Source: Mesodorylaimus sp. YZB2_4
Taxonomy: Eukaryota; Nematoda; Enoplea; Dorylaimida; Dorylaimidae
NCBI GenBank assembly: GCA_030248295.1
Contig: JASANH010000986.1
Span: 1-64,000 of the forward strand
Direction of reading: 5' to 3'
Length of the DNA: 64,000 nt
Every line of letters begins with the position of its first letter. Position 1 is the stretch's first letter. Shown piece by piece: positions 1 to 48,418 of the stretch. The translations under genes were made by a program, and so were the position numbers. Below the pieces are notes generated by a model. That model was not told the DNA's origin. It worked only from the letters and a program-made list of their open reading frames with translations, and ran no database searches.

Positions 1-109
1 GCCTCTGCTAAGCGCAACCACGGTTTAGGAAAAATGTCTGAGCCGAAGCTGCTTTTTCTGCATGAATATCAACTGGACGACTGATCGTGCCAGAGGACCA
101 TGCAATCCT

Positions 110-295
110 GTGCTCGTGGTCCACATAGTGGGCTTGGAGTGTCTAACTCTCGGGCTATGTGTAGTAGCGCTTGATCTTATTGTTACTAGGGAGTGCTCGA
201 CTCGCGGCCAGGTAAATCATTTTGTGTCATGTGCCCCTTCATCCTCGAGCGGTTCATTACTGATATGATAAACCATGAGCATGAACATAAAGTAG
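110..295 (+). repeat. SINE-1 (tRNA-Glu-derived), degenerate copy
   Basis: The copy contains the B-box-like GTGCTCGACTCGCGG, the body words ATCATTTTGTGTCA and CCTTCATCCTCGAG, and the CATGAACAT-type tail. Its inverted mate lies at about 11,135-11,315 in the other palindrome arm. Confidence 0.6.
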
Positions 296-802
296 GAAGA
301 AGAGGAAAAGATTTTTTCAGTGTTCCTCGAGGCATAGGCATCTAACGATAAGCCATATCACTTTACTCGCAGCGCTACAGCTTTGGCGTATCTAGGTTGC
401 CCACGCGAAACAGCACAGCTGCCTTTGGGGAGCCTGTCTGAAGAGCAGCAGTGCACAGAACACTTGCTTTGTGTATTTGACGCTGACATCTCAATGAATA
501 CATACAGTACATGTGTGCGAGCGATTACAAGCTGTGTGCAGTGCCTCACATGTTGGGCCACATTTCCTTTTAATTGTGGCCGAGTAGACCAGCCATCCTA
601 GGCCCTGGTTCCATTGTGTGCATTGGCTGGTCTAAAAGTTTCGAGTCTGTCATAACAGACTTTCTTGGAAATAATAAAACCGTTTTTCGTTTTTTGCTAC
701 AAACTAGTTTGGCCCAAAAAAGTTGTTCCAACGTAGATCAACTGAGAGAAATGTATGACTATCATACGTCTTCTTCCAAACCTCTGAAAAACAGAAACAT
801 AC

Positions 803-985
803 CGGCCTCGTGGCCTGGTGGGGGGTTAGGCGTCTGCCTCTCACGCCAGGTGCGCAGTTACGGGCGAGTGTTCGACTCGCGGCCCAGTAAATCATTTCGT
901 GTAAAATGGGTGCTTCACCCTCGAGTGCTCGAGTGCGCATAAGCGTTTGGTGATGTGGTCAAACGTGAACATGAAACATGAAACG
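803..985 (+). repeat. SINE-1 (tRNA-Glu-derived), near full length
   Basis: The head reads like a tRNA-Glu gene: GGCCTCGTGGCCTGGTGGGG (A-box region), CTGCCTCTCACGCC (anticodon loop with CTC) and GTGTTCGACTCGC (B box). A non-tRNA body follows with CCCTCGAGTG and GCATAAGCGTTTGGTGATGT. It ends in a CATGAA-rich tail. The mate in the right arm is at about 10,440-10,622 on the minus strand. Confidence 0.85.
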
Positions 986-3127
986 GAACGTGAGCACGCG
1001 CCCATGAAATTACTTGTAAAGACCGCCTACAGATCATGCCTCTATCATACCCGATACCATCTTTGAGTAGGCAAAAAGTCTAATCGTGAGACCGCTCATA
1101 TTCCTTGTCCACAAAAAATGCTCTATGGCAAAAATATGCTGACATTACTAGCATTACGAGAAGGCAAGCAGACAAAGGTAACACATTAACCAAAGTGACA
1201 ACCTATCAAAACTGAAGCCAGCCTAGGCAAAACTAGCTCATTCTCGGGGTGGCCTTAAATTCTTTCTACCCAGAGCATTCCATCAGAAACTGAAACAGAA
1301 TGTTCAGGATCCGCAAGTTTTATCAGGTTATTATTAGCTCTAATTTTCCTCAGCAATATTAGCTCCACATCTAATAGAACATGTCCTGCTCATGGAAATT
1401 CTTTCCACATCATTTATTTCCGTTCACATATTCTCAATTGATTATCGGCAAATTTATTGGTGTACACCAAACACATTTTCGTAAGAGCGCGCTGAGCCTA
1501 GGCAATCAATGGCGCTGCACCTCAACCCGTTCGAACACCGCGCCGAAAGCGAAAAAACAAAACACCACGCCACACCGAAGCGAAAACGCAAGAAGAGAAC
1601 CAAAAAAGGATCGCAGCTGCAAGAAAGCAGACCCGCGCGCGCAATTTGATCAAAATCTATGAGACTCGACGAGCGACGTGAAAGCCAAAAGAAGATGATC
1701 TAATAACTTCAGAACTAAAGCTTTAAAAAACGAATGCCAAAAGCAGACTGAAGGCGCAAGCTTTAGAAGAACATTACACCGACGACCCTCTCAATCGTGC
1801 GCTAGCCTGATTATCCTCCTCCTCCTCGTCTTCTCCCCCCCTGAACAAGAAAGCGATTCTGAACTCGACAACGCTGACGATTCGATAAAAAGCACGAGTA
1901 GATAGGCCAATTCTGCAAGTGTGCGAAAAATAAAAACTCGCAAACCTCTGAAGTATAGCCGGCGAAAATAGCCTTAGCATAGCTCTGCTTCTAAGCAGCA
2001 CAGTTTATGCAGCGTGTTAGTATGTTATTATATCTAGTCCGAGTGGGATCACTCAATACAGCCGCAATCATCCCTGACTAAAGAATGAACTATCAAAATG
2101 CTACATACTGGATCACTTAGTTATTACTTTTTTGCACCTGACGAGACACGGCACACACTCACCAAGAACAGTAGACATCCGTATACCTCCGCAGTAGATT
2201 GATTGCATATATCAACAGATGATCCTGTATCATACTAACCTCTTCTGAGCCTCTTCTCACGTTGATCGGGCGACCGCGTGTGACTTATCGTACCTCAGAA
2301 ACGAAACGGCGCCAACGCTGGAACTGATGGAAGGAAACACTACACCCCACAAAACTGCTAGGGGCGTGTAGGATTTTGTATTTTGTAAGCAGCGTGTTCG
2401 TATGCTATTATTCCTTGTTCCTAGGGGATCCCTTGTACCACGCTAGAGTCTCGTCCCTACAGCGTTTCACTCTTCTTGCGGCACGAATGGACAAGGAGCA
2501 CCCCCCCCCCCCCCCCCGCAACGCCTGTCTCTATTGTACTTGATTCTTATGCGCTCCACTGAACCATGAAACCTTTTCACAGTCTCAGCGAATGCCCCAA
2601 GCGCCATTCCTACTTCAGTCGTACATGAAAAATTCAGTGGTGATATCAATCAGTGCCACCACTGAAGTTAACGACTCGTCATGCAGACTCCTTCTTCCAA
2701 CATTGACACTTCGCACATGCGAACTGAACTTTGCTTGCATCCCTATTCGACGAACGCCAATACTGAAGTCAGAATCACAAGCGTGATAGAGGTGAAGCTG
2801 ACGTGTGAGAACCCCTCGCCAACAATTGCAGCAACCCTAACTGGGGACCTGAGTCTGCAGCATCTGAGGGTAGCGGTAGTTCGAAGTCCTCATCCTCACC
2901 ATTAATATTTAGCAGCCCTGGCAAAGAAAGACTGAATCCAGAACTATTCGTGTACAGAAAGTTTGCCGTCCCAAATTTCACTAGAGCATTTGCCCCCTTC
3001 GGCAATGACGAGTAAAACTCATCACAACAGCAGCAGAACCGCATCCTGACCTCAAAAGCATCACGAAACCACGATATACAAAATCATTAGCTCATCTACT
3101 CAATCGATACGTCCGCCAACAGTATGA

Positions 3128-4000
3128 TCACACAGCCGTAGCTTCTGCAGTTTGTTTGAGATACCTTGATCGATTTGACTGACATGTGATTTCGACAATA
3201 TTGACTCTTGATCTTTCCCATTTGTTACTTTTTTTCTTGATGCATTTCTTGCTGCAGTCTGACTGCTTCAGTACCAACTGCAAAGTTTTTTCAGACTGCA
3301 AACTTTCGTAAAGTGTGACTATTTCCCTGCTATTGTTAACTGCGCGAAAACGCTTTTCCCTTTTACTCTGTTCACTTGCTTCCGATCGAAGCCTGTACTT
3401 GATGCGACTGTCGAAGATTCCTTGCGGCGCTGCGTGGTGTAGACTGTGCAAACTGCGCGTTGCTACGATGCATCATCAACAGCATCGTATCCATTTCTAA
3501 AACAGCAAATCATGAACATTTCCAGTACATTTTAGACGGAAAGAAGAAAGCAGAACGTACAGCGATGTCATGACGCTGACCCATAATGAAAATTCAGCTG
3601 TCAGTTTTGAAAAGCGCGACTCACTGTGCAGAACCCAATACCGTCGCACCCTTGAAGCATCTCCAGCTCCGATTTATTACTGCTCCCAATAACACGTGCT
3701 ACATTTTCTTTCGCTGCGAGAGCAACGCTGCACCTTTCTGAAGAACATCATGACAACGAATGCGACCTGCTGTCGGGCACGAATCTACGCTGTGCATCTA
3801 CGTCAACAAATTGAAGACCTGACCAATGCACGATGCCGAGCTTGAAGTGCTGCCCAAATCAAGTTGCTAACCACCGCCACAACGAAAGAGACATGAGCTC
3901 GATGTCCAGTTCGTATAATATCGATAACGAGAAAGGCCACTGCGAAAACGATACCTAAAACAACAGCCCAGAACCCCAACGCCGCTGAAATCTTTTGCCA
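3128..4000 (-). pseudogene. Broken copy of the four-TM protein gene (left palindrome arm)
   Basis: This is the mirror of the gene at 7,135-8,089. The start region, the hydrophobic segment LGFWAVVLGIVFAVA and the segment VVSNLIWAALQAR are recognisable on the minus strand, but the frame changes several times through small indels. The second exon survives in pieces near 3,130-3,450. The damage is dense one-base indels, not a clean truncation. That suits either a decayed duplicate or raw-read-like sequence error, and the second explanation is favoured by the intact right-arm copy. Confidence 0.7.
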
Positions 4001-4339
4001 TGCTGAAACCAATACCAGCACCAAGCCCTCTCAAACCTTGTCAGTCACTAATTGACTTCGAGAAGCGTGCACAACACGATTCGCGCGGAAGTGTAAAGTG
4101 AAACTACTGTGCCCAGTGCTGTGTGCCAGCTATCATTATCAGCAGCTGAAGAACTTACAACACTCGTTAGCCACAGAGAGAGCCAATGCTGCCGAAAATT
4201 CATGTACAGAATACGTGCATGTAAGTGCACATGAAAGAATTTGCAGCTGTCTTCAGTACAGAAAATTGATGTTATGTGAACAGAGAGAATACTGCAAAAG
4301 CGTAAAGTGTCACTGTCTATGTTCTCTCAGAGTCCTGCA

Positions 4340-4382
4340 ATGACCCAAACCCGTACCCATACCCACCCGTACCCGCGGTATG
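4340..4382. repeat. ACCCGT/ACCCAT hexamer array (left arm)
   Basis: Short array of ACCCGTACCCAT-type hexamers. It corresponds to the longer array at 6,670-6,765 in the right arm and is shortened here. Confidence 0.7.
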
Positions 4383-5042
4383 ATACTTTGTAAGTCGGCG
4401 TATGTACGTATTCTTCTCATGCCCTCTTCTTCCATACTTCCTGTGACCTGCTTCTTTATGCAGTACTTCATGAAGTTGAAAAACAGAACGCCTGCCCAGC
4501 AGGATCTTGACAAATGCTGCATGCCCAACTGGCGACAAGTTGAGCCAGAAAATGAATTATACTCATCGTGCCATCGAAAAAGCACGCAAGGAGAATTTTA
4601 TGTAATGTGACAAATGAGAGAAATTCTCAGGCAAAGTTCAGAAAAGAAGCTGCGATTGAGAAGCTAGTCCTAGACGCGCCCAGCTGTTATTAGCCAAGTT
4701 GATGCCAGAAAACATGTTTTTTTAAACAACGAGTAACGTGACATTCTATTTACGCGTTCGCAGAGCCACACTTATTCCGAATTATATATCCTGCCATTGT
4801 ATTATAGTTCCTAGCGCACTTCTACACGTAGCTCAACAAACTCCAGCTCCAAACACACTACCAACGCAAGCACTCTAGAAATCCAGAACTATCCATCCAA
4901 CCATCCCACAAAATTATACCAGTCCAAGTCATCACTCCCAAGCCACAGCAACCACTCCCATCCAGCGACCAACCTCACAAACCAAAAATCAGACAAGAAA
5001 AGCAGTAGAAACAACCCCCCATTTATCATCCTATGAGAAAAA

Positions 5043-5390
5043 GACACAGAACATGAAAAAAAGAAGAAACACCACAACCACCAAGACCCCCCCTCACCCA
5101 CCCCCAAGATACACTCTCGCAATCATACACACAAACCACACACCACCAAACAAAAACCACAAAAAAAAACAAAAGAAGCAAAAAATACCCACAACAAACA
5201 GCCCCCCCAACCACACCAAAATCACACCACCAACAAAAACAACACAAATCAAACAACCCACACAACCAACAAACCAAACAAACCCAAAAACAAACAACAA
5301 CACAACACCCCCAAAACAAAACCAAAACCCCCACACCCAACACACCCAAAAAACCAAAAACCCACCCCACCCCAGAATGCAGTCTCTAAT
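5043..5390. repeat. A/C-only spacer at the centre of the palindrome
   Basis: For roughly 300 bases the plus strand is almost purely A and C, with scattered G and T only at the edges. It begins where the left arm stops matching the right arm and ends near 5,372. No short repeat unit is obvious, so it is not a simple satellite. The adjoining left arm from about 4,840 is also depleted in G and T relative to its mate. The long open frames here are by-products of the composition and are not genes. Confidence 0.8.
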
Positions 5391-5763
5391 CTGAGCCCAA
5401 CGAAACCAATCTAGGGGCGAACAAAGATTACAGCGATCCCGGAAAGTATCAAAACATAGAAACCAACCATTTGAGTCAAAAAATTGACCTACATAGAAGA
5501 TACCTGACTCAGCCCAAAATGGCCGTTACATTTGATTTGATGTAAATGCTTATCCTTACGCATTGGTCAAGGTGTGATACATCATATGGTACAGTGGACT
5601 CTAAAAACCAGCGGAGCGGGCTCGATTCCTGCTTGTGGCGCATATTTTCCATTCCGCTTCTTTTGTTTCTTCTTCAAATCTAAGTGAGCCATTCTTTGTA
5701 ATTCGGATGCGTGTACGCATGCGCATTCCACCTGATGTACGCATATGCAAACTTGCAAGAACG

Positions 5764-5805
5764 AGTACCCGTACCCATACTTGGCGGGTACGGGTCAGGA
5801 GGGGG
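5764..5805. repeat. ACCCGT hexamer hairpin near palindrome centre
   Basis: The run GTACCCGTACCCATAC is followed by GGCGGGTACGGGTCAGG, its partial inverse, so the strand can fold back. The same hexamer recurs at 4,340-4,382 and 6,670-6,765. Confidence 0.65.
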
Positions 5806-6669
5806 GAAGGTACTCATGCAAGACCTGGTATGTGAGTGTACAATCCCTCACTTCTTTTTTTCATGTTCTGTGTCTTTTTCAATCATAGGAATGATAAAAA
5901 ATGACCGGGGTTGTTTCTAACTAGCTTTTACTTCGTCTGATTTTTGGTTAATGTGACGCAGTTAAGGTCACCTAGGACACATAAGGCGACGTGGCCTCAT
6001 CGCCTAGTGGCTTAGGCGAGTGATCGACTTGCGACTCAGGTAATCAATTCTTGTGGGATGAGTCCTGGATGGATAGTTCTGGATCCTTCTAGAGTGCTAA
6101 CCTGCGTTCGGTAGTGTGTTTAAGCACGAAAACAGCTGGAGTTTGTTGACAGACTACACCACCGTAGTCAGAAGTCGCGCTAGGAGAAGTACAAACAACT
6201 ATAATACAATGGCAAGGCATATATAGATCCCTTCAGGCAAATAAAACCAAGTGTCAGCTCTGCGAAACGCATAAATACCGAATGTCACGTTACTCGTTGT
6301 TTAAAAAAAAACATGTTTTCTGGCAAGACTCATCAAACCTTCAGGCACTAATAACACAGCTGGGCGCGTCCTCAGAGAGGCTTCGCTTCTCAATCGCAGC
6401 TTCTTTTACCTGAAACTTTGCACTGAGAATTTCTCCCTCCATTTGTCACATTCACATAAAATTCCCCTCCAACCTTGCCGTGCTTTTTCGATGGCACGAT
6501 GAGTAATAATTCATTTTCTGGCTCAACTTGTCGCACGAGTTGGGCATGCCAGCAACATTTGTACAAGATCCCACTGCTGGGCAGGCGTTCCTGTTTTTCA
6601 AACTTAACATGAAGTACTGCATAACAGAAGCAAGGTCACAGGAAGTATGGAAGAACGAGGGCATGAGAA

Positions 6670-6765
6670 CGAATACCCGTACCCATACCCGCCGACCCTT
6701 ACCCAAACCCGTATCCATACCCGCCGGGTACGGGTGGGTATGGGTACGGGTTTGGGTACCCATGC
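6670..6765. repeat. Inverted ACCCGT/ACGGGT hexamer arrays forming a hairpin
   Basis: About 45 bases of ACCCGT/ACCCAT/ACCCTT hexamers are followed immediately by about 45 bases of the inverse ACGGGT/ATGGGT hexamers, centred near 6,723. The result is a near-perfect stem with G-rich arms. Confidence 0.8.
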
Positions 6766-7134
6766 AGGACTCTGAGAGAACATAGAACAGTGACACTTTA
6801 CGCTTGCAGTATTCTCTCCTGTTCCACCCATAAACCATCAATTTTCTGTACTGAAACGACAGCTGCCAAATTCTTTCATGTGCACTTACATGCACGTGCT
6901 ACTGTACATGAATTTTCGGCCAAGCATTTTTAGTTGGCCTCTGCCCTACTGTGGCCTAAACGAGTGTTGTAAGTTCTTCAGCTGCCCTGATAATGATAGC
7001 TGGCACACAGCACCTGGGCACAGTAGTTTCACTTTACACCTTCCGCGCGAATCGTGTTGTGCACGCTTCTCGACCAGTCAATTAGTGACCCTGACAAGGT
7101 TTGAGAGGGCTTGGTGCTGGTATTGGTTTCCAGC

Positions 7135-8089
7135 ATGGCGAAAGAACTTCCAGCCAAGGCGTTGGGGTTCTGGGCTGTTGTTTTAGGTATCGTTTTCGCA
7201 GTGGCCACTTTCTCGTTATCGATATTATACGAACTGGACATCGAGCTCATGTCTCTTTCGATTGTGGCGGTGGTTAGCAACTTGATTTGGGCAGCACTTC
7301 AAGCTCGGCCATCGTGCCATTGGTCAGGTCTTCAATTTGTTGACGTAGATGCACAGCGTAGATTCGTGCCCCGACGAGCCATCGCCATTCCGTTGTCCAT
7401 GATGTTCTTCAGAAAAGGTGCCAGCGTTGCTCTCGCAGCGAAAGAAAAACCTGTAAGCAACCGTGTTATTGGGAGCAGTAATAAACCATCGGAGCTGGAG
7501 ATGCTTCAAGGGTGCGACGGTATTGGGTTCTGCAAACCAGTGAGTCCGCGCTTTTCAAAACTGACCAGCTGAATTTTCATTATAGGATCAGCGTCAGTGG
7601 GCGTCGGCTGCACTGTTCTGCTTTCTTCTTTCCGTCCTAAATGTGCTGGAAATGTTCATGATTTGCTGTTTTCGAAATCGATACGATGCTGTTGATGATG
7701 CCATCGTAGCAACCACGCGCAGTTTGCCACCCAAGTACTACACCCACGCAGCCGCCGCCAAAGGAATCTTCGACAGTCGCATAGAATTCCAGGCTTCGAT
7801 CGGAAGCAAAGTGAACAGAGTAAAAGGGAAAAGCGTTTGGCCACAGTCAGAATTTGATAGCCCGACCGAAAAATCGTCGACACTTTACGAAAGTTTGCAG
7901 TCTGAAAAAACTGTGCAGTTGGTACCTGAAGCAGTCAGACCTGCAGCCAAGAAAATGCCGCCATCGAGAAGAGTAAAAACGAATGGGAAACGATCCAAGA
8001 GTCCAATATTGTCGAAATCACCAGTGTCCAAGTCCAAATCGATCAAAGGTATCTCCAAACCAAAGACTGCAGAAGCTACGGCTGTGTGA
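7135..8089 (+). CDS. Four-TM membrane protein, family member A
   Basis: Two exons, 7,135-7,539 and 7,586-8,089, joined in phase 0 across a 46-bp GT-AG intron, give about 302 residues. The start is the ATG just after a TTTCCAG acceptor-like site. Hydrophobic segments lie near residues 8-30 (AKALGFWAVVLGIVFAVATF), 40-60 (SLSIVAVVSNLIWAALQA), about 80-100, and at the start of exon 2 (WASAALFCFLLSVLNVLEMF). The C-terminal ~110 residues are hydrophilic and Ser/Lys/Pro-rich, ending in a basic tail. The motif C-x-W-S-x-L-Q-F-V plus the following FVPR is shared with the gene at 16,749, so the two are paralogues. No function is assigned. The predicted third TM is weak, and a local frame error there cannot be excluded. 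Confidence 0.7.
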
Positions 8090-11000
8090 TCATACTGTTG
8101 GCGGACGTATCGATTGAGTAACGATGAGCTAATGATTTTGTGTGCATTGGTTTCGTGATGCTTTTGAGGTCAGCGAGTTGCGGTTCTGCTGCTGTTGTGA
8201 TGAGTTTTACTCGTCATTGCCGAAGGGGGCAAATGCTCCTAGTGAAATTTGGGACGGCCAAACTTTCTGTACAACGAATGAGTTATCGATTACAGTCTTT
8301 CTTTGCCAGGGCTGCTAAATATTAAATGGTGAGGATGAGGACTTCCGAAACTACCGCTACCACCTCAGATGCTGCAGAACTGCAGGTCCCCCAGTTAGGG
8401 TTGCTGCCAATTGTTGGGGCAAGGGGTTCTCACACAAGTCAGCCTTCACCACTCTATCACGCTTGTCGATTCTGACTTCAGTTGTGGTTCAGTATTCGTC
8501 GAATAGGCGATGCAAAGCCAAAAGTTCAGTTCCGCAATGTGCCGAAGTGTCAAATGTTGGAAGAAGGCAGTCTGCATGAACCGAGTCGTTAACTTCAGTG
8601 GTGGCACTGATTGGTGTCGCCCCAACCCTGAATTTTTCATGTAACCGAAACCTGAAAGTAGCGAGTCGCGCTTAGGGGCCATTCGCTGAAGAACCTGTGA
8701 AAAAGGTTTCAATGGTTCCAGTGGAGCACATGAGATAAAACTGTGCAAATGGACGACAAAGGCGTTGGGGGGGTGACTCACTTGTACCCATTCGTGCCGC
8801 AAACCGAAGAGTGAAACCGCTGTAAGGACCGAGACTACTAGCATACCAACCAGCTAAGGGATCCCACTAGGAACAAGTAATAATAGCATACGAACACGCT
8901 GCCTTAACAAAATACAAAATACTACACCGCCCCTAGCAGTTTTGTAAGGGGTGTAGTGTTTACCCTTCCATCCAGTTCCAGCAAGTTGGCGCCGTTTACC
9001 GTTTATTAAGGTACGATACCAGTCAACACGCCAGGTCGCCCGATCAAAGTACAACCAGAGGCTCAGAAGACCAGTTCCTGTGATATACGGGTGATCTGTT
9101 GATATATGCAAATCGATCTACTGGGGAGGTATACAAGGGGATGTCTACCTTGTTCTTGGTGAGTGTGTGCCGTGTCTCCGTCGGGTGCGGAGGTTCAATA
9201 AACTAAGTGATCACAGTATGTAGCATTTTGATAGTTCGTCCTTAGTACAGGAATCGATTGCAAGGACTGTATTGAGTGATCCCACTCGGAACTAGATATA
9301 ATAACATACTAACACGCTGCCCCATAAAACTCGTGCCTGCTTAGACCAGCCAACCAGACGCCTAATGCTAAAGGACTATTTTCGCCGGCTAATAACTCAA
9401 GAGGTTTGACGAAAACTTTTGATTTTTCGCACACTTAGCAGAATTGGCCTAATCTACAATCGTGCCAATTTTTATCGAAATCCGTCCAGCCGTTGTCGAG
9501 TTCCAGAATACGCCATTTCTTGTTCAGGGGGAGAAGACGAGGAGGAGGAGGGTAAACATCAGGCTAGCGCAACAATTAGAGGTCGTACAGGTGTAAATGT
9601 TACTTTTCTAAAAGCTTGCGCCTTCAGAATCTGCCTTTTGGCATTCGTTTTTTAAAAGCTTTAGTTCCTGAAAAGTTATTCCAGAAATCAATCACTTCTT
9701 TGGCATTTCAAAACGTCGCTCGTCGAGTACTCAATAGATTTTGATCAAAAATTGACGCAGCAGCGGGTCTGACCTTTCTTGCAAAGCATGCGAAAAATCA
9801 ACTTTTTTGGTTCAATCATTCTTGCGTTTATCGACTATCGAAAGTAGCTGGCGCTGGTGTTTCTGTTTTTTCATTTTCGGCGCGGTGTTTAAAAACATCA
9901 ACTGAACGGGTTGAGGTGCAGCGCCATTGATTGCCTAGGCTCAGCGCGCTCTTACGAAAATGTGTTTGGCGTACACCAATAAATTCGCCGATAATAAATT
10001 GAGAATATGTGAACGAATATAAATGATGTGGAATGAGTTTCCATGGGCAGGACATGTTCTGTTAGGTGTGGAGTAATATTGCTGAGGAAAATTAGAGCTA
10101 ATAATAACCTGATAAAACTTGCGGATCCTGAGCGTTCTGTTTCAGTTTCTGATGGAATGCTCTGGGTAGAAAGAATTTAAGGCCACCCCGAGAATGAGCT
10201 AGTTTTGCCTAGGCTGGCTTCAGTTTTGATAGGTTGTCACTTTGGTTAATGTGTTACCTTTGTCTGCTTGCCTTCTCGTAATGCTAGTAATGTCAGCATA
10301 TTTTTGCCATAGAGCATTTTTTGTGGACAAGGAATATGAGCGGTCTCACGATTAGACTTTTTGCCTACTCAAAGATGGCATCGGGTATGATAGAGGCATG
10401 ATCTGTAGGCGGTCTTTACAAGTAATTTCATGGGCGCGTGCTCACGTTCCGTTTCATGTTTCATGTTCACGTTTGACCACATCACCAAACGCTTATGCGC
10501 ACTCGAGGGTGAAGGGACCCATTTTACACGAAATGATTTACCGGCCCGCGAGTCGAACACTCGCCCGTAACTGCGCACCTGGCGTGAGAGGCAGACGCCT
10601 AACCCACCAGGCCACGAGGCCGGTATGTTTCTGTTTTTCAGAGGTGTGGAAAGAGACGTATGATAGTCATACATTTCTCTCAGTTGATCTATGTAGGAAC
10701 AACTTTTTCGGGCCAAACTAGTTAGTAGCAAAAAACGAAAAACGGTTTTATTATTTCCAAGAACGTCTGTTATGACAGACTCGAAACTTTTAGACCAGCC
10801 AATGCACACAATGGAACCAGGGCTTAGGATGGCTGGTCTACTCGGCCACAATTAAAAGGAAATGTGGCCCAACATGTGAGGCACTGCACACAGCTTGTAA
10901 TCGCTCGCACACATGTACTGTATGTATTCATTGAGATGTCAGCGTCAAATACACAAAGCAAGTGTTCTGTGCACTGCTGCTCTTCAGACAGGCTCCCCAA

Positions 11001-11424
11001 AGGCAGCTGTGCTGTTTCGCGTGGGCAACCTAGATACGCCAAAGCTGTAGCGCTGCGAGTAAAGTGTTATGGCTTATCGTTAGATGCCTATGCCTCGAGG
11101 AACACTGAAAAAATCTTTTCCTCTTCTTCCTACTTTATGTTCATGCTCATGGTTTATCATATCAGTAATGAACCGCTCGAGGATGAAGGGGCACATGACA
11201 CAAAATGATTTACCTGGCCGCGAGTCGAGCACTCCCTAGTAACAATAAGATCAAGCGCTACTACACATAGCCTGAGAGGTAGACACTCCAAGCCCACTAT
11301 GTGGACCACGAGCACAGGATTGCATGGTCCTCTGGCACGATCAGTCGTCCAGTTGATATTCATGCAGAAAAAGCAGCTTCGGCTCAGACATTTTTCCTAA
11401 ACCGTGGTTGCGCTTAGCAGAGGC
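8090..11424. other. Right arm distal part, no gene seen
   Basis: This is the mirror of positions 1-3,127. It includes SINE-1 copies and the phrase CAGCCGTTGTCGAGTTCC, which resembles sequence common in invertebrate transposons. No exon chain was found. Confidence 0.55.
10440..10622 (-). repeat. SINE-1, mirror copy in right arm
   Basis: This is the reverse complement of the 803-985 copy. It was duplicated as part of the palindrome, so it is not an independent insertion. Confidence 0.85.
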
Positions 11425-11430
11425 CGAGTA

Positions 11431-11984: not shown

Positions 11985-12103
11985 TTCTCGAGGGTGAATG
12001 GACACATTATACAAGAATTTATTTACCGGACCGCGAGTCAAACACTCGCCCGTAACTGCGCACCTGGCGTGAGAGGCGGACACCAAACCCACCAGGCCAC
12101 GAG
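11985..12103 (-). repeat. SINE-1, head and body fragment
   Basis: It shows the inverse B box GCGAGTCAAACACTCGC, the anticodon region GGCGTGAGAGGC, and CCACCAGGCCACGAG. The CATGAA tail is missing. Confidence 0.8.
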
Positions 12104-15395: not shown

Positions 15396-16748
15396 TCTTT
15401 GAGCAAGCTACCCGCCAAACAGACGACTGCACAGCAAGGCGACAAACCGACTGCTCGCCACAGAGACAGACCAAAAAAATTAATGCGCGGAGTCGAATAC
15501 ATTGAAAAATAGGTCAGTGCTCTGTCAGCCAATCAGCCAATCATATTCTGCCAGCACGATTCGACCGACCGCCTGGCCAACTGGAGCAGGGCAGCAAGCG
15601 AAGATCAATTGATCTTATGTTTCTGTGAGGCCTCGATTACCCACCAGCCTTATATGAACACATCCTTGATATAGCGCATGGACTCAACTCTCGCCATGTT
15701 CATGTTTTGCTTCAGCCAAGTGCATGTACGTGCATCCGATGGTGAAGGGACACGCTACACACGAAACGATTAACCTGGCCGCAAGTCGGACACTGGCCCG
15801 TAACTGCGCACTACTGGAGGCGTGGAAGGCAGGAGCCTAACCCACCCAGGCTTCTTCGCGCTCCCCATCGGCGTCGACTGCTCCTTTACGGGATTATTGG
15901 GCGCACTCTACAAAATGCCTGTCCCCTTATGAGTGCGTGTCATTCCAGATAAAGCTTACGCAACTTGCCTGCTTTCAAAGACATGCGACCATGGACATGG
16001 ACCCGTCCTACCAGATACGATGTAGGTGGCGAATGCTTTGCCTTCAATAGAAAATTTCAAATAAGTGTAAAGAAAGTGATAGCAGACACTGGGAATGACC
16101 AAAAGGGCTCGCATTATCTGCAGTTTCATGCAGTAAAATAAACCTGCGATGAGGCCCCACCATTGGTCCTTTTACTTGCTTTTCTCGTTGCCACATGTGC
16201 CCGCATGTGACTACGCAGTGCTGCCTTAGAAAACAGTCTTTTCGGTTGATTAAAGCGTGCTATTGCTAGCACAGTACCTACTTATTTTTTCATACCTTTA
16301 GCGCACCTGGTTTTTTCCTACGCTGATGCTGCTAGTCTCCTTGTTCGTACTTTACCAATGTTGGTTTGCGCCCAGAAAAAGATTCGCTTGTTTCTTCGCT
16401 TTTTTTCCATCTAAAGCACATCAATCATTTGACAATCTGACATCCTGATGATGCTGTTCGCAAATGAGCAATTTCCGCAACTGTAAGAATATGCCCTGCT
16501 CTACATTTCAGTAGGCTATATCCGAAAATTGGCTGTTTTACTTGTCATTTCTGCCTTATTGCTGTTTTACTGTCTGACGTGAGGACAAATTTAGCGGCAG
16601 TGTGGCGGCAAATTTAGCAGAGTACACCATCGTGTATTGAACGCACCCAGTAGACCTGCCGCAAAGTGGCTTTACAATCTGCCGGGGCTTATTCTTTTGC
16701 CTTCTTTTTTTTCAGTCATGTTCCATCCTTCTCTCAGCTACTGCATCT
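15396..16748. other. Intergenic with one SINE-1 copy
   Basis: Apart from the degenerate SINE-1 at about 15,699-15,852 I see no gene. The segment before 16,749 may carry the promoter of the four-TM gene, but no motif decides it. Confidence 0.5.
15699..15852 (-). repeat. SINE-1, degenerate copy
   Basis: It contains the inverse tail CATGTTCATG, GTGAAGGGACACG, the inverse B box CGCAAGTCGGACACTGGC and CTAACCCACCCAGGC. An inserted trinucleotide and other changes show an older copy. Confidence 0.75.
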
Positions 16749-17746
16749 ATGGGGCGGTTCTCTCTGAAAGCCGCAGGCTTGTGGTTCTCTGCTTGGCACA
16801 TTGGTGTGGCGGTGGTCCTGGCTGTACTGTGCATTGTGCCTGGGTATGCTTATGCTCCCAGTGATAGCAACAGCGAGTGGTGCAGAAGATACGAACCACT
16901 GGAGAAAGGGGCTATGGCCGTGCCGCTGACGATCGCCATTATTTCTTTGATTATCAACATCACCTGGATTGCATTTCAGCAAAAGCCGCTTTGCCGATGG
17001 TCGATTTTGCAATTTGTAGGCGAAACTAAGGTCTACGATCGTGGTGACGAGGTCGTCACGGAAACGAGGCAGTGGTTCATTCCTCGCTTTGGAATCACAA
17101 TCGCCTTAGCGGTGCTATTCTTCGTCGCAAGCATCCTAGCCGCACACAATACCAGTTTTTACGGTGATAAGGTATGTACGCAGGTCTTGTTTCACAAATT
17201 CGCCTGGGGCTCGATTATTTCAAGCAGGTTCGTAAGGAATTCTTTGATGCTATGCTATGCTATGCTTTACTGTATTAAAAGACCAAAAAGTATGTACGGT
17301 ATATGATTTCTATCATATGGCGCAGGCGCTCTCATCGCTCGAAGATAAAACATCGAAACTGTATATGACGATGTATTGCAAAAAGACTCTGACACAAGCT
17401 CATTGGGAGAGCAATGCAGCAGGTTTTGGCACCTTGAATCGAAGGGTGCAGCCGAATTTCATGTCCAGGGGCCCGTAGTCCATGACTAATCTCTCATGGT
17501 ACCTGACTGTGAGGCGCAATGCTGAGTGGACTTTTATGCTGATCTATGTTTGACCACTACGCCTGACTGGGCAAGCCATATGGTACCCTTCACTCTTGAC
17601 ACAGGCACAACTTCTTTTTTTAGTGCGGCAATCCAATCGGAGCATGGGTGGCTGCGACTATCTTCACTATGCTTGCTGTGGTCGGCTTCTGTGTCGAAAC
17701 CGCTGTAGTTTTGAAGTGTACCTCAGCGTATGACAAAAGTTCTTGA
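16749..17746 (+). CDS. Four-TM membrane protein, family member B
   Basis: Exons 16,749-17,171 and 17,624-17,746, phase 0, GT-AG, give 181 residues. Four hydrophobic spans are clear: about residues 15-37 (IGVAVVLAVLCIVPGYAYA), 57-78 (VPLTIAIISLIINITWIAF), 114-133 (FGITIALAVLFFVASILAA), and in exon 2 (GAWVAATIFTMLAVVGFCVE). The loop between TM2 and TM3 has C-R-W-S-I-L-Q-F-V, shared with the gene at 7,135. A short first extracellular loop and a long second intracellular loop recall tetraspan families such as MARVEL, but I cannot assign one. The 452-bp intron contains no obvious extra exon. Member C (18,150) lies 400 bp downstream on the opposite strand. Confidence 0.8.
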
Positions 17747-31002: not shown

Positions 31003-31162
31003 AATGCTATGTGGTACTTGTGGAGTAAAAATGTTTTTCATACTGTCTTTATTGGATGAGAAATATTGCGATCAAGACGCTATTCTTAGCTGTGTGATGG
31101 ATCGTGGAGTGTGTCTTGGTAATTTGGATATTTTTGTTTTAGTGTGACCTCGATTCGACAAA

Positions 31163-32849
31163 ATGGATTTCGTTTTTTTGCAAATATTTACGGCGGTGGG
31201 TATATTTTTGGCTCTAATCAGTTGTTCCTACTTGCCTTATTGCATCATTCAATATCGTGCACGCAAGCATTCGAGAACGTCTCGACGCAAATCGATAGGT
31301 AATAGCGGCGTTCCAGTGCTATCATTGTGTAATTGCTTCGCGGCTGGAGTCTTTTTGGCGACGTGCTTCCTCGGTATGGTACCTCACGTGCGAGAACATG
31401 TGGCCGAATGGAATGCCGCGCAACGACGTCAGTCACTGGCCGTCATTGAAAATCAGTCAGTGTCACCAACGGCGACGACTTCGGGGCACAGTTCGCATTC
31501 GTCCAATGGGCCACCGTGGACGGAGATTCTATTAATGGGTGGATTCTTGATGATTTTACTTTTGGAAGAGCTGATCAGTGCGTGTCAACGTTATTGCCGA
31601 TGTTGTCGACGTCGTCAAAATCAACATCGCCATAACGTTGCGGCGAGAGCACGGCCAGTCATGGTGGCCGAAAATGAACCTTTAATGTCGGATGAAGAAG
31701 TCGGTTCTAATCACCGAAGCGACAGCAAGCCTGGTCCTGACAGTCCGATCGATTTGGTGCGACTGAGCGATATGGACGGTCATTTGCATGGACGCGAGTA
31801 AGTAGGGGTAGCTGCTATAATGGCGGGGAAGTCGGGCCGCGACTGCCAGGGTTCGTTCAAGGGGAGTTTTCAGTCTGATTGGCCGTAGTGGATCAGACAA
31901 ATCAAAGAGAGATGGGCAGGCACATTGTAGGTACCTACTGAGCAGTCTGACAGTCACCGATCACAATGTATGTTGTGTGAGCACGGGGAAGTACTGTAAT
32001 TTCAAGCCTCAGGTAAAAGCCCTAGCTATCAGCTGATGGCATCGTAGCTTGAACTCGCCATCAAGCGGATACTGTTATCCCAAAATTAATGCGTGTGGTG
32101 GCACAGCTTCGAATGCGGGTGCAAGATAGTGCCTCTCACTTGGGATAGGTGAAACCTCAGCAGGACTTTGGATTATCGCACCCACATGAGTAGGCCCTGT
32201 TAACGGACCTGAAGATGTTTTGTTTTAGGTCAGTCTCGTCTAGCAATGGCGGTCACCACCATCATCATCATATCGATGCAGGAGCACTATTGTCGGAAGG
32301 CGCTCGTTCTCTGACTTGGCGATCGCTGGCACTGTTATTCGGGCTTGGTATCCATGGTATTTTCGAAGGAGTTGCATTGGGTCTTCAAGATCAACGCGAT
32401 ACTCTGTTCAGCCTACTGCTAGGGGTCATGTCGCACGAAGCTTTATGCGCAATCGCGTTTGGTATCAACTTGGCAGGCCATCGTGTCGGTGCTGGCGTGG
32501 CATTCCTTACGGTCGTGCTGTTCAGTTTGAGCATTCCGTTCGGTATGATGGCTGGATTCGTTGTGAGCCGTCAAAAAGCCAGTACTGGCACTGGTGAGAT
32601 GGTGCGGATTACATTGGAAGGCTTAGCCGCGGGTAAGTCATTTTTGTGGGGAATATGTGTTCAGTTTTTATAACTGCTGGTTTAGGTACTTTTGTGTACG
32701 TCTCCTTCATGGACATGCTAGCGCACGAGTTGGCTCATGGTCATGATGAACATGGAAAAGAAGGAACAAGTGCTCGTTGGAGATTGGCGAAAGTATTGTG
32801 CGTTTGCGCTGGGTTTCTCCTTTTCTTATGTTTGACCCTAATTGCTTGA
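31163..32849 (+). CDS. ZIP-family zinc transporter (SLC39A1/2/3-like)
   Basis: Three exons: 31,163-31,797, 32,229-32,632 and 32,686-32,849, in phase, 400 residues. Start MDFVFLQIFTAVGIFLAL gives TM1. TM2 contains LSLCNCFAAGVFLATCFLG followed by MVPHV. TM3 is ILLMGGFLMILLLEEL. The long cytosolic loop is Cys/Arg-rich and ends in six consecutive His just before TM4. TM4 has the metal-site motif HGIFEGVALGLQ and TM5 has MSHEALCAIAFGINLAG. TM6-8 follow, with GTFVYVSFMDMLAHEL. This is the ZIP II subfamily pattern; these proteins move zinc into the cytosol across the plasma membrane. Loop histidines are common in the family and may sense zinc. The start lies 160 bp after the EBP2 stop. Confidence 0.94.
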
Positions 32850-37348: not shown

Positions 37349-38922
37349 CTATTCGCTGCATAGTTGGGGCAAACCGAGTTTTTGCCAATCGATCCAAGCC
37401 AATCGTGCTACCAAATCTAAAAAATTGAAAGCTTGTTAATATGTCATCTATCAGGCTAAGGCTAGGATGGACTGGATTAGAGATCGGGGGATAATTTACT
37501 TGACTACGAAAGCCGTTGGACAATGTGGGAGGCGCTTTGGCGTTACCCTCTAGGATAGCTTACCACTAGTCGCCCATCGCGGCGGTTCGTTTTGCTTCCT
37601 TCTTTTGCTCTTCTCACTTGATTGCTTGGCCTGCTCGGCACTCGTTCTCACGTACTGAACAACTGGCTCGTGCTCAGGAAGCGATAATAGATCTTCTAAA
37701 AGTGCGATGTAGGCGATGGCTAATCGCAGTGAATCGATTTTGGACAACCGTTTCTCGAATGGGAACGTGGGGATATGATCCTTGAGCTCCTAAATAAAAT
37801 GTTTATATAGATAACATGGTTTTTAAAAAAATTTTTCGACTTATTATAATATTTCCTCAGTTTTTCAGTCTTCTAAAGCGTCTGCCTACAACCACGGTCA
37901 GCTGTCACGTACGAGAAGCGAGGCCGTGAGGTGGCTAACTCACACGACAGGCTTCTTCTGACGGGTGCCTTCGCCGAGGGCCTTTTATGCCAGTATCTGC
38001 GCCCCAGAATGATGGTGGGGGTTTAGAGAACCTGTTCGAGGGGCAGGTTCCCGCTCTATCATTTGGCGACCCCCTTGATCCCAGAGCCAGGCTTGCAAGC
38101 AGCTCCCTAAATCGTTGTCCATGGCTACTTCCAAATCAGAAGACGTGTTAACTGCCATTCCCAGCCGATAGAAGTGGGCCTCCTTCCTGGCCAGAATGGC
38201 AAGGGCCAGGGTGAACCAGTGTTATTCTCAGACACCAGAAGCGTTTATACATGCAGAGTTATTGAGCACTACTGCAACAGGCTGAATGGCCGAACATTGG
38301 AGTAGGTACCTCGGCAGACCTCCTACCGCTCTTACGAGCAGGCAGATCACCTAGTCGTAGGAGCCTGAGACATCAACTCGGCGGGTTTCTGCCCCACCTG
38401 GAGAGGATGATATCGACCAGCCAACGGAGGCGAGCCAATACACTGTGATATGTCCCTCCACCCTGAGTGCGCGGAGTGTACGTGCGTGTTTGGTGGCGTG
38501 GCGAAACATGAACATGAAAATGCACTTACCTCGAATGCCTTGTTGATACTGCACATTCTCTTCCTCTCCCTCACATTGGCCGCTTGTCTAACTCTGGGAA
38601 CGTCATCCGAGTCAAACGCGTCGTCCATATTGCCCATATCGATTGGCTCTAGGGAACCGGCAACATTGATCTGTTCGTTCTGATCGAGAATCTGCGAGCC
38701 AAATATAATATGCTGATGCTGCTCCGCCATGGTCATGTGGTGATGGGAGTGGTGCTCGAGATCGTTCTCGTACACTAGTGGCCATAATTGTTGTTCGTAC
38801 ACGTTTTGCTGAACGGAAGAAAGTTGGGCGTAAGTATAAGAGTCGTCATTGCGGCCCCCGTCCATATCGAGACCAGATCGAGCACTCGTTTCCACTTCCA
38901 CTCTGACCGTTACAATTTTCAT
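37349..38922 (-). CDS. PTF1A/Fer-like bHLH transcription factor
   Basis: Three exons: 38,922-38,530, 37,789-37,564 and 37,416-37,349, in phase, 228 residues. The bHLH spans about 109-165: basic region [13 protein letters not shown], helix 1 [17 protein letters not shown], loop [11 protein letters not shown], helix 2 [15 protein letters not shown]. The [12 protein letters not shown] plus EKRLSKxDxLRLAI combination is typical of PTF1A, Fer1 and relatives, class II tissue-specific factors that dimerise with E proteins. The N-terminal part is acidic with a His-rich patch ([17 protein letters not shown]). The last exon adds [16 protein letters not shown]. Intron 1 splits helix 1 and contains a SINE-2 and a SINE-1 tail; the SINE-1 tail ends next to the donor. 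The gene is convergent with the METTL4-like gene, with 174 bp between stops. Confidence 0.92.
37870..38200 (-). repeat. SINE-2, degenerate copy in bHLH intron 1
   Basis: Minus-strand reading has GAACCTGCCCCTCGAACAGG, CACCATCATTCTGGGGCGC and CACGGCCTCGCTTCTCGTAC, matching the SINE-2 tail order with divergence. Confidence 0.6.
38448..38527 (+). repeat. SINE-1 tail abutting the bHLH exon 1 donor
   Basis: GTCCCTCCACCCTGAGTGC, GTGTTTGGTGGCGTGGCG and AACATGAACATGAAAATGC are SINE-1 body and tail. They end within a few bases of the minus-strand GT donor at 38,529-38,528. Confidence 0.75.
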
Positions 38923-39460
38923 TTCTCCACCTCTAAACTGCGAATTTGACCGCGCCGATTGGTAATCAAGACTTCGTTATGGCTTGTCAGTCTTCCCAAT
39001 CACAGACACCGTGCGAGAAACGAATATTAGATGGTGGCCCAGGGTCGGCATCGTTCACGCGCAAAATGATTTCTAAGAATTAAATGGCGGCTTTCTTGAG
39101 TAGACGTTGTTGCCGCATCCAAAACGCGTCTCCTAGGTTGAGGAAGGGTGTCGGGAAATTGAACTGACTAATCGAGCGTTCCGAGGCCCGCTTCAAGTGG
39201 TTCGAATAATTAAATGAGCAGTGGGTGTCGATGTTAAGGTCACTCGCGCGTGTGATGACGAGGTGTCAGCTTAGACAAGACCAGAATAAGAAATATCACA
39301 TTGAGACCCTACGCGATGCCTAAAGAACAAAACCTGTGTCTGTCTTATTTGAAGGCGAGTAACCTGAGGTTATTCTTCAATGGGATCGTAGAAGTGCGGA
39401 ATATCTGCAATATGTATCACGACCATACCATAGTGTGTACGGAAGTATTGTATACCATAT
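38923..39460. promoter_or_regulatory. Upstream region of the bHLH gene
   Basis: About 540 bp precede the start codon with no gene or named repeat. It probably holds the promoter, but no motif is diagnostic. Confidence 0.35.
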
Positions 39461-47206: not shown

Positions 47207-48418
47207 TCACTCGCGGTTGCTCTCCAATCCGCGACACTCCCCACAGACGATTTCTAAGGGGTATAATTGCACGATTGCGCGTTTGATTTCTTGTCCATTG
47301 GTCAGCTTGATGATGGCTACACGAATGTTTCCATCGGTTGATGTTATGAAATCTTTGATGATGCCAGTGCGCCAACGATGTCGTGGGCCTTCTGATTTAA
47401 TCTGAACGATTTCTCCGATCTGCGGTGTGGATGCTGACTTCGCCCTTCCTTGTTTGAGTTGAACCCTTTGGCGTTCCCGCAGAGATGTCAGGTATTCGGT
47501 TTGCCACAATCTAACGAATGCATTGTATATATTGCGAAGACGTGTCCAGTATTCTTTAACAGCCTGTTCGTTGGGGGTGGCCACGCTTTCTCCACGAGGG
47601 CATTCTCCTGGATGTATAAAATGAGCTGGCGTGATTACAGTCTCTCCGATTTCAGATCCCACATGCACGAGAGGGCGATCATTGATTACAGCTTCTATTT
47701 CTGCTGTAAGCACCTGCAGCTGTCGCGAGTTGAGTAGTGCATTTCCGACTGTCTTGAGCAGCGCTCGCTTGACCATTCCCACAAGTCGCTCGTAGAAACC
47801 ACCCATCCAGGGGGGCCGTTCAGGTATACGTTTCCATTGAATTCCATGGTCAGCAGCGAACCTTTGTACCTGCTTTGCGGTGAATTGACCGGCGTTGTCC
47901 GACCAGACCACTTTTGGCTTTTGTCGGCGTGCGATATAGATTCGAAAAACATTGAGAAAGTCGTCAGCGCTTAAGCCCTCGACGACCTCGAGATGGAATG
48001 CCCTCGTTGCGGTGCATGTGAATAGGCAGATCCAACGCTTTGCGAGTTTGTTGTTCCCGATTTTAACAGTGAGTGGACCAAGGTAGTCGACGCCAATGGA
48101 CCCAAACGGTGTGAAGACATTGACTCGTTCTTGCGGTAAGCTTGGAGATTCTGGCGCAGTAAATGGACCTCCATCGAGTTTCTTGCATTGAGTGCAGCGC
48201 CGAAGGACATTGAACACAACCTGCCGTCCTGCTGTGATCCAAAAGCGTTGGCGAAGATGAGCGAGCGTCTGTGCCGTTCCAGCGTGGCACAGTTGAGCGT
48301 GAGTGTGTGCGATTATCAACTTCGCGAGTTCAGATTTCCTCGATAGCAGGATTGGTTTCTTTGCCTCTTCGTTTAGAGGAGCGTGCGTGATCCGACCTCG
48401 ACCTTGAATCAGTACACA
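47207..48418 (-). mobile_element. BEL/Pao retrotransposon integrase region, open frame
   Basis: One open frame of about 404 codons. It begins RGRITHAPLNEEAKKPILLS, the linker BEL/Pao polyproteins have between RNase H and integrase. The HHCC zinc site follows (AHTHAQLCHAG, RRCTQCKK). The integrase core has D in GVDYLGPL, D in WSDNAGQF and E in PPWMGGFYERLVG. The DUF5641-type tail follows: RPLVHVGSE, PAHFIHPG, REYLTSLRERQR-like, and PRHRWRTGIIKDF. A stop lies just upstream of 48,418, and no reverse transcriptase, protease or gag is seen upstream. It is an element remnant whose integrase frame is undamaged over its whole length. Confidence 0.92.

Follow-up and report, generated by a model that had tools for sequence, protein, structure and literature searches.

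Features of the contig tip

The window, that is, the whole stretch of 64,000 nucleotides analysed here, belongs to a contig of the Mesodorylaimus sp. YZB2_4 assembly (JASANH010000986.1, hereafter C100), and base 1 of the window is base 1 of that contig. When the window was aligned with itself by BLASTN, positions 1–5066 matched 11424–5851 in inverted orientation over 5606 columns, with 87.4% identity and 572 gap columns; the 11.4 kb palindrome claimed in the preliminary description is thus present in the letters (Table 1). C100 begins exactly at the outer edge of the left arm, and because the window starts at base 1, the left arm is the contig end; any left flank, such as a real inverted duplication should have, would lie outside the contig. 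Additionally, the segment between the BLAST arms (5067–5850) is largely palindromic as well. In an interior control confined to C100, nine overlapping tiles of window positions 12001–63600 contained no inverted pair longer than 230 columns.

Table 1. Features of the palindromic tip of C100 (window coordinates)
Feature	Position	Strand	Evidence
Outer left arm (very probably artefactual), near-clean mirror of about 10026–11424	1..1410	-	1372 matches, 27 mismatches
Degraded left arm, mirror of about 5852–10025, losing bases on its side only, G and T above all	1411..5065	-	gap events, per-base recall
A/C-rich stretch, mirror of 5508–5849 with most G and T missing	5066..5265	-	alignment score
A/C-only stretch adjoining the supposed turning point	5266..5371	.	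no match to any G or T; 24 bases in excess
Right arm, apparently genuine genomic sequence; its left edge is the supposed turning point	5372..11424	+	
Right-arm open frame, 153 codons, with hydrophobic segments	7111..7572	+	

The right arm looks like ordinary, apparently genuine genomic sequence. Two of its segments, 5372–5516 and 8943–9216, match dispersed repeats elsewhere in the genome, best at 92–93%. An open gene had been said to survive in this arm, and the 462-base frame at 7111–7572 is indeed open, while its left counterpart (3594–4024) spans 431 bases and carries stops in all three frames. In a single BLASTP comparison, the product of the open frame was weakly similar to that of another frame of the window, 16641–17306 (19 of 53 residues identical, E 6e-09). 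Neither frame gave a Pfam match above cut-off; for 7111–7572, two matches fell below their respective cut-offs.

To look for sequence beyond the supposed turn on other contigs, we queried 5300–5850, 5400–7400, and 7400–9400 against the 1067 contigs of the assembly (145,146,385 bases). Outside C100, partial matches of at most 93% were obtained, mostly to dispersed repeats, with the lone exception of a short minisatellite match (97% over 33 bases); two of these searches scored 40 of their 189 and 40 of their 440 candidates, respectively, and a further place may have been missed. A transposon with long inverted arms was also considered and was rejected, as the matches listed outside C100 cover pieces of the arm alone.

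One-sided decay of the left arm

Identity along the arms was followed in bins of 200 left-arm bases. The outer arms had been described as matching almost perfectly, and over left 1–1410 they are 98% identical, gaps aside, with 11 extra bases and no gap in the left arm; bins across 1–1400 range from 0.915 to 1.00. From there, identity falls sharply between adjacent bins, from 0.97 to 0.77 (1401–1600) and 0.59 (1601–1800), and across 1401–5066 it varies unevenly between 0.47 and 0.92. The worst bins adjoin the centre, and the best degraded bin is 3801–4000 (0.92).

The gaps of the degraded zone lie almost entirely on one side. Over left 1411–4700, where the arms are 86% identical if gaps are disregarded, the left arm has 132 gap events, which total 401 bases, whereas the right arm has 4, which total 8 bases. 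Single-base gaps account for 50 of the 132, and where a left-arm gap removes one kind of letter, the same letter adjoins it in 38 of 61 cases. The accumulation of small indels toward the centre of the left arm, as stated earlier, was therefore borne out in its one-sidedness (132 vs 4) but not as a steady trend, because identity is already at 0.59–0.77 at left 1401–2000, rises to as much as 0.92 and then declines again. The homopolymer changes also mentioned there were found in part, namely in the 38 cases above. The transition-to-transversion ratio between the arms is 0.93, a value that stands without a control from real copies. Collectively, accuracy is lost in one arm, through missed bases, as would be expected of a fold-back read. 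Even divergence, or even likeness, along the arms would be expected of a real palindrome; the loss seen here is one-sided and base-specific, with a break at about 1410.

Selective loss of G and T

We defined recall as the share of each right-arm base that is retained in the alignment of the left arm with its mirror. In the outer zone (left 1–1410), recall is 0.97–0.99 for every base, and in every left-arm zone the recall of A and C stays within 0.89–1.00. The loss falls on G and T: their recall is 0.76 and 0.66 at left 1411–2600, 0.74 and 0.86 at 2601–3600, 0.78 and 0.89 at 3601–4300, and 0.64 and 0.78 at 4301–4800. Closer to the centre, at 4801–5065, G drops to 0.40 and T to 0.46, with A and C both at 0.98; at 5066–5265, G and T reach 0.09 and 0.11, with A and C both at 0.96. 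The loss does not rise smoothly toward the centre, 1411–2600 being poor and 3601–4300 better.

The two innermost of these zones were scored against their mirrors, with mirror limits that were taken from our own alignment and favour the observed scores somewhat. Left 4801–5065 scored 179.5, compared with maxima of 44.3 among 500 shuffles and 51.1 among 1700 other window segments; left 5066–5265 scored 69.8, compared with maxima of 15.8 and 39.0 in sets of the same sizes. Furthermore, when the left arm and its mirror were reduced to A and C, 195 of 200 columns agreed for 4801–5065 and 180 of 186 were identical for 5066–5265. The apparent A/C-only spacer, at least over 5066–5265, is consequently the mirror of right 5508–5849 minus most of its G and T. 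Four dispersed genome copies compared with the right arm show a loss of at most 0.03 of any base. No mutational process known to us strips a single strand of two of the four bases; the likely cause of the two-base loss is a base-caller working on an over-fast signal. Had the bad arm been the second to be read, the read would have run along the minus strand, and the lost bases would be the A and C of that strand.

Centre of the palindrome

Toward the centre, the mirror becomes faint. The whole of 5066–5376 scored 39.3 against its expected mirror, far above the maximum of 200 dinucleotide shuffles (0.5) and below the top of 300 random window segments (45.7). Its outer part (5066–5221) scored above all 300 random segments, and its inner part (5222–5376) was equalled or exceeded by 267 of the 300. 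Likewise, six proportional sub-bins of 5066–5376 gave z values of 3.6, 2.1, and 4.0 in the outer three and of −0.7, −1.0, and 0.3 in the three nearest the turn. For 5266–5371, no G or T of the expected mirror was matched and 24 extra bases were present, and alignment of 5266–5507 demonstrated no mirror. A mirror could thus be shown up to left 5265 and right 5508, and no pairing emerged for the 242 bases between them.

We presume that 5266–5371 is miscalled read-back. A clean repeat match begins at 5372, which suggests that the read turned at about this position. The repeat in question (5372–5516) is dispersed in the genome, and two copies of its family share 1.85 kb. It is cut on its other side too, and its start at the supposed turn is not decisive.

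Comparison with independent genome copies

Dispersed copies allow the two arms to be judged at the sites where they differ; the copies compared are those fetched as loci, a subset of the search matches. Within right 8943–9216, the arms differ at 71 sites; the majority of six copies supports the right arm at 66 of these, the left arm at 2 and neither arm at 3. For right 6182–6666, one copy sides with the right arm at 100 of 124 sites, with the left at 5 and with neither at 19; within this interval, at 6396–6642, four copies do so at 46 of 55, with 3 for the left arm and 6 for neither. In the degraded zone, the copies consequently disagree with the bad arm.

In the outer 800 bases, the opposite was observed. 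At 12 differing sites there, the majority of six copies has the left-arm letter at 9, the right-arm letter at 2, and neither at 1. This preference for the left arm counts against an artefactual origin of that part. Polishing by stray reads of other members of the repeat family would explain it.

Palindromes at other contig starts

For comparison, the first 10 kb of the 20 longest contigs (C1–C20, starts only) were examined. Two of the 20 carry a palindrome whose left arm starts at base 1: in C4, 1–2280 pairs with 5961–3672 (96.8%), and in C12, 1–3332 pairs with 8657–5328 (97.7%), the inverted arms thus being 2.3 and 3.3 kb long. Identity per bin is 0.985–1.00 in the outer 1.4 kb of C4 and the outer 2.2 kb of C12, and lower inwards. 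In the degraded part of the C12 tip arm (left 2201–3200), 24 bases are missing and none are added; in that of C4 (left 1401–2200), 24 are missing and 11 are added. Near the centre, C4 has C-rich stretches and C12 a T-rich stretch. Per-base loss is mild in both, the lowest recall of any base being 0.88 in C4 (A, left 1801–2280) and 0.93 in C12 (G, left 2801–3332). Among the three palindromic tips, strong loss of G and T occurs in C100 only, and C4 shows no clear preference for these bases. Moreover, the middle of C4 is more complex, with a second inverted match of 3104–3423 to 6246–5895.

In total, inverted matches were found in 7 of the 20 starts; those of C5, C11, C15, C17, and C18 have 60–81% identity, are mostly self-paired and were left uncounted. 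When about 3 kb beside each of the three turning regions were compared, no common match was found at E 1e-3. Telomeres of the TTAGGC type are known from nematodes, and the start of C17 is an array of this type, the sole start of the 20 with many telomere-like motifs.

Origin of the palindrome

We conclude with high confidence that the palindrome is a fold-back read artefact that was kept as a contig tip and is absent from the organism. The preliminary description had proposed a fold-back, and this reading gains support from the one-sided and base-specific loss, from the genome copies that side with the right arm, from the location at base 1 of the contig and from the two similar tips among 20 other starts. 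Given the position at the tip, it is also the simplest account. In such a scenario, a long read, most likely from a nanopore, would have followed the minus strand out of the contig as far as about 5372 and gone on there to its own complement. Beyond the pore, the second strand may have re-paired with the first and been pulled through too fast, and the base-caller would have missed bases, most of all right after the turn. The assembler would then have retained the fold-back read as the contig tip. In the outermost 1.4 kb, the copy may have been faithful enough for reads of the true locus to map to it and correct it during polishing. We infer the platform, the single read, its direction, the exact turning point, the cause of the pull-through, and the polishing. 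Against this account stand the outer 800 bases, in which the copies favour the left arm, the uneven course of the loss, the confinement of strong G and T loss to C100, the more complex middle of C4, and the mirror that could not be demonstrated at 5266–5371.

A known sequencing failure resembles this pattern. In the portion of their report consulted, Spealman et al. (2020; PMC7229812) describe nanopore reads that lose quality and miss bases from the junction of an inverted duplicate onwards, with faster translocation, and propose that re-pairing pulls the strand through the pore. The same portion states that verified real inverted duplications also give such one-sided errors. In both cases, the loss sets in after the junction, falls on whichever part was read second, and includes missed bases; the poor part is also the shorter one in both, at about 5371 against 6053 bases here if the turn lies at 5372. 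In contrast, the duplications in that portion are real and quality recovers afterwards, whereas the left arm of C100 stops at the contig tip and is clean in its outer part, and the description given there does not include a loss confined to two bases. Our search of the literature by title and abstract start found no treatment of base-specific loss in fold-back reads; one may still be in print.

Heinz et al. (2026; PMC12870357) describe fold-back artefacts (duplicated inversions) among long reads, ascribe them to library preparation, and note that assembly graphs can become tangled by them. Their account deals with artefacts in reads, whereas the present palindrome stands in a finished contig. 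It also mentions a subset of fold-back reads whose breakpoints lack signal noise; in contrast, calls after the supposed turn are very poor here, and this counts against an artefact. Palindromic long reads from whole-genome amplification are likewise reported to be artificial and to harm assemblies (PMC6218980, PMC13265396).

Alternatively, the organism might carry a large inverted duplication whose axis lies near 5372. The left arm would then be real DNA, badly called from one-sided reads, because nanopore accuracy falls after the axis and too few reads would have come from the far side. Errors of this kind in verified duplications (PMC7229812, consulted part) favour this explanation. We nevertheless regard it as very improbable: the contig stops precisely where the left arm stops, palindromes from base 1 at 2 of 20 other starts would not be expected of real duplications, and queries with the right arm gave, outside C100, partial matches of at most 93%, mostly to dispersed repeats, with 40 out of 189 candidates scored in one search and 40 out of 440 in another.

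Two further explanations, each rated even lower, were considered and rejected. The gap-free identity of 86% over left 1411–4700 and the broken left frame would suit a real palindrome of great age, with mutations having eroded its left arm. Such decay is extremely improbable in view of the almost complete loss of two bases (recall 0.09–0.11 against 0.96), which four dispersed copies do not share, of the abrupt drop in identity from 0.97 to 0.77 and 0.59, and of 132 gaps against 4. A chromosome end capped by a hairpin, at which reads turn back naturally, would agree with the short spacer at the turn (no more than about 242 bases separate the demonstrated mirrors) and with three contig starts that fold back. 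Shared sequence is lacking at E 1e-3 in the roughly 3 kb beside the three turning regions, and the TTAGGC-type array of C17 implies that at least one end is an ordinary repeat array; a hairpin cap therefore has hardly any likelihood.

If the palindrome is a fold-back artefact, as we hold, its consequences reach beyond C100. Because two of 20 other starts share the layout, gene counts, surveys of inverted repeats and duplication calls near the contig ends of this assembly need checking. The data also suggest a test for such tips that needs only the sequence: both arms are reduced to A and C, and a match is sought. This signature is strong in one of the three palindromic tips studied here.

Other contig starts

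Two other contigs of the assembly, C4 and C12 (both examined over 1-10000), each begin with a palindrome from base 1, and C-rich (C4) or T-rich (C12) stretches lie close to the centres. Additionally, C4 contains a second inverted match, between 3104-3423 and 6246-5895. The start of a further contig, C17, carries a GCCTAA/TTAGGC-type array (about 1-690), which is probably a telomere; its regularity falls toward the outer end.

Other features of the window

Based on its domain matches, the minus-strand segment at 47207-48418 is a retroelement integrase region. The two frames with hydrophobic segments exhibit weak similarity to each other (19/53), have no above-cut-off match in Pfam, and possibly represent a local gene family. 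Moreover, a repeated GGGTACGGGTAC-like stretch at about 6670-6775 has matches across many contigs.

Frames and domain matches in the window
Feature	Position	Strand
Frame with hydrophobic segments	7111-7572	
Frame with hydrophobic segments	16641-17306	
ZIP zinc transporter match	31148-31801	
Helix-loop-helix match, partial, barely over its cut-off	38347-38976	
Integrase_H2C2, rve and DUF5641 matches	47207-48418	minus
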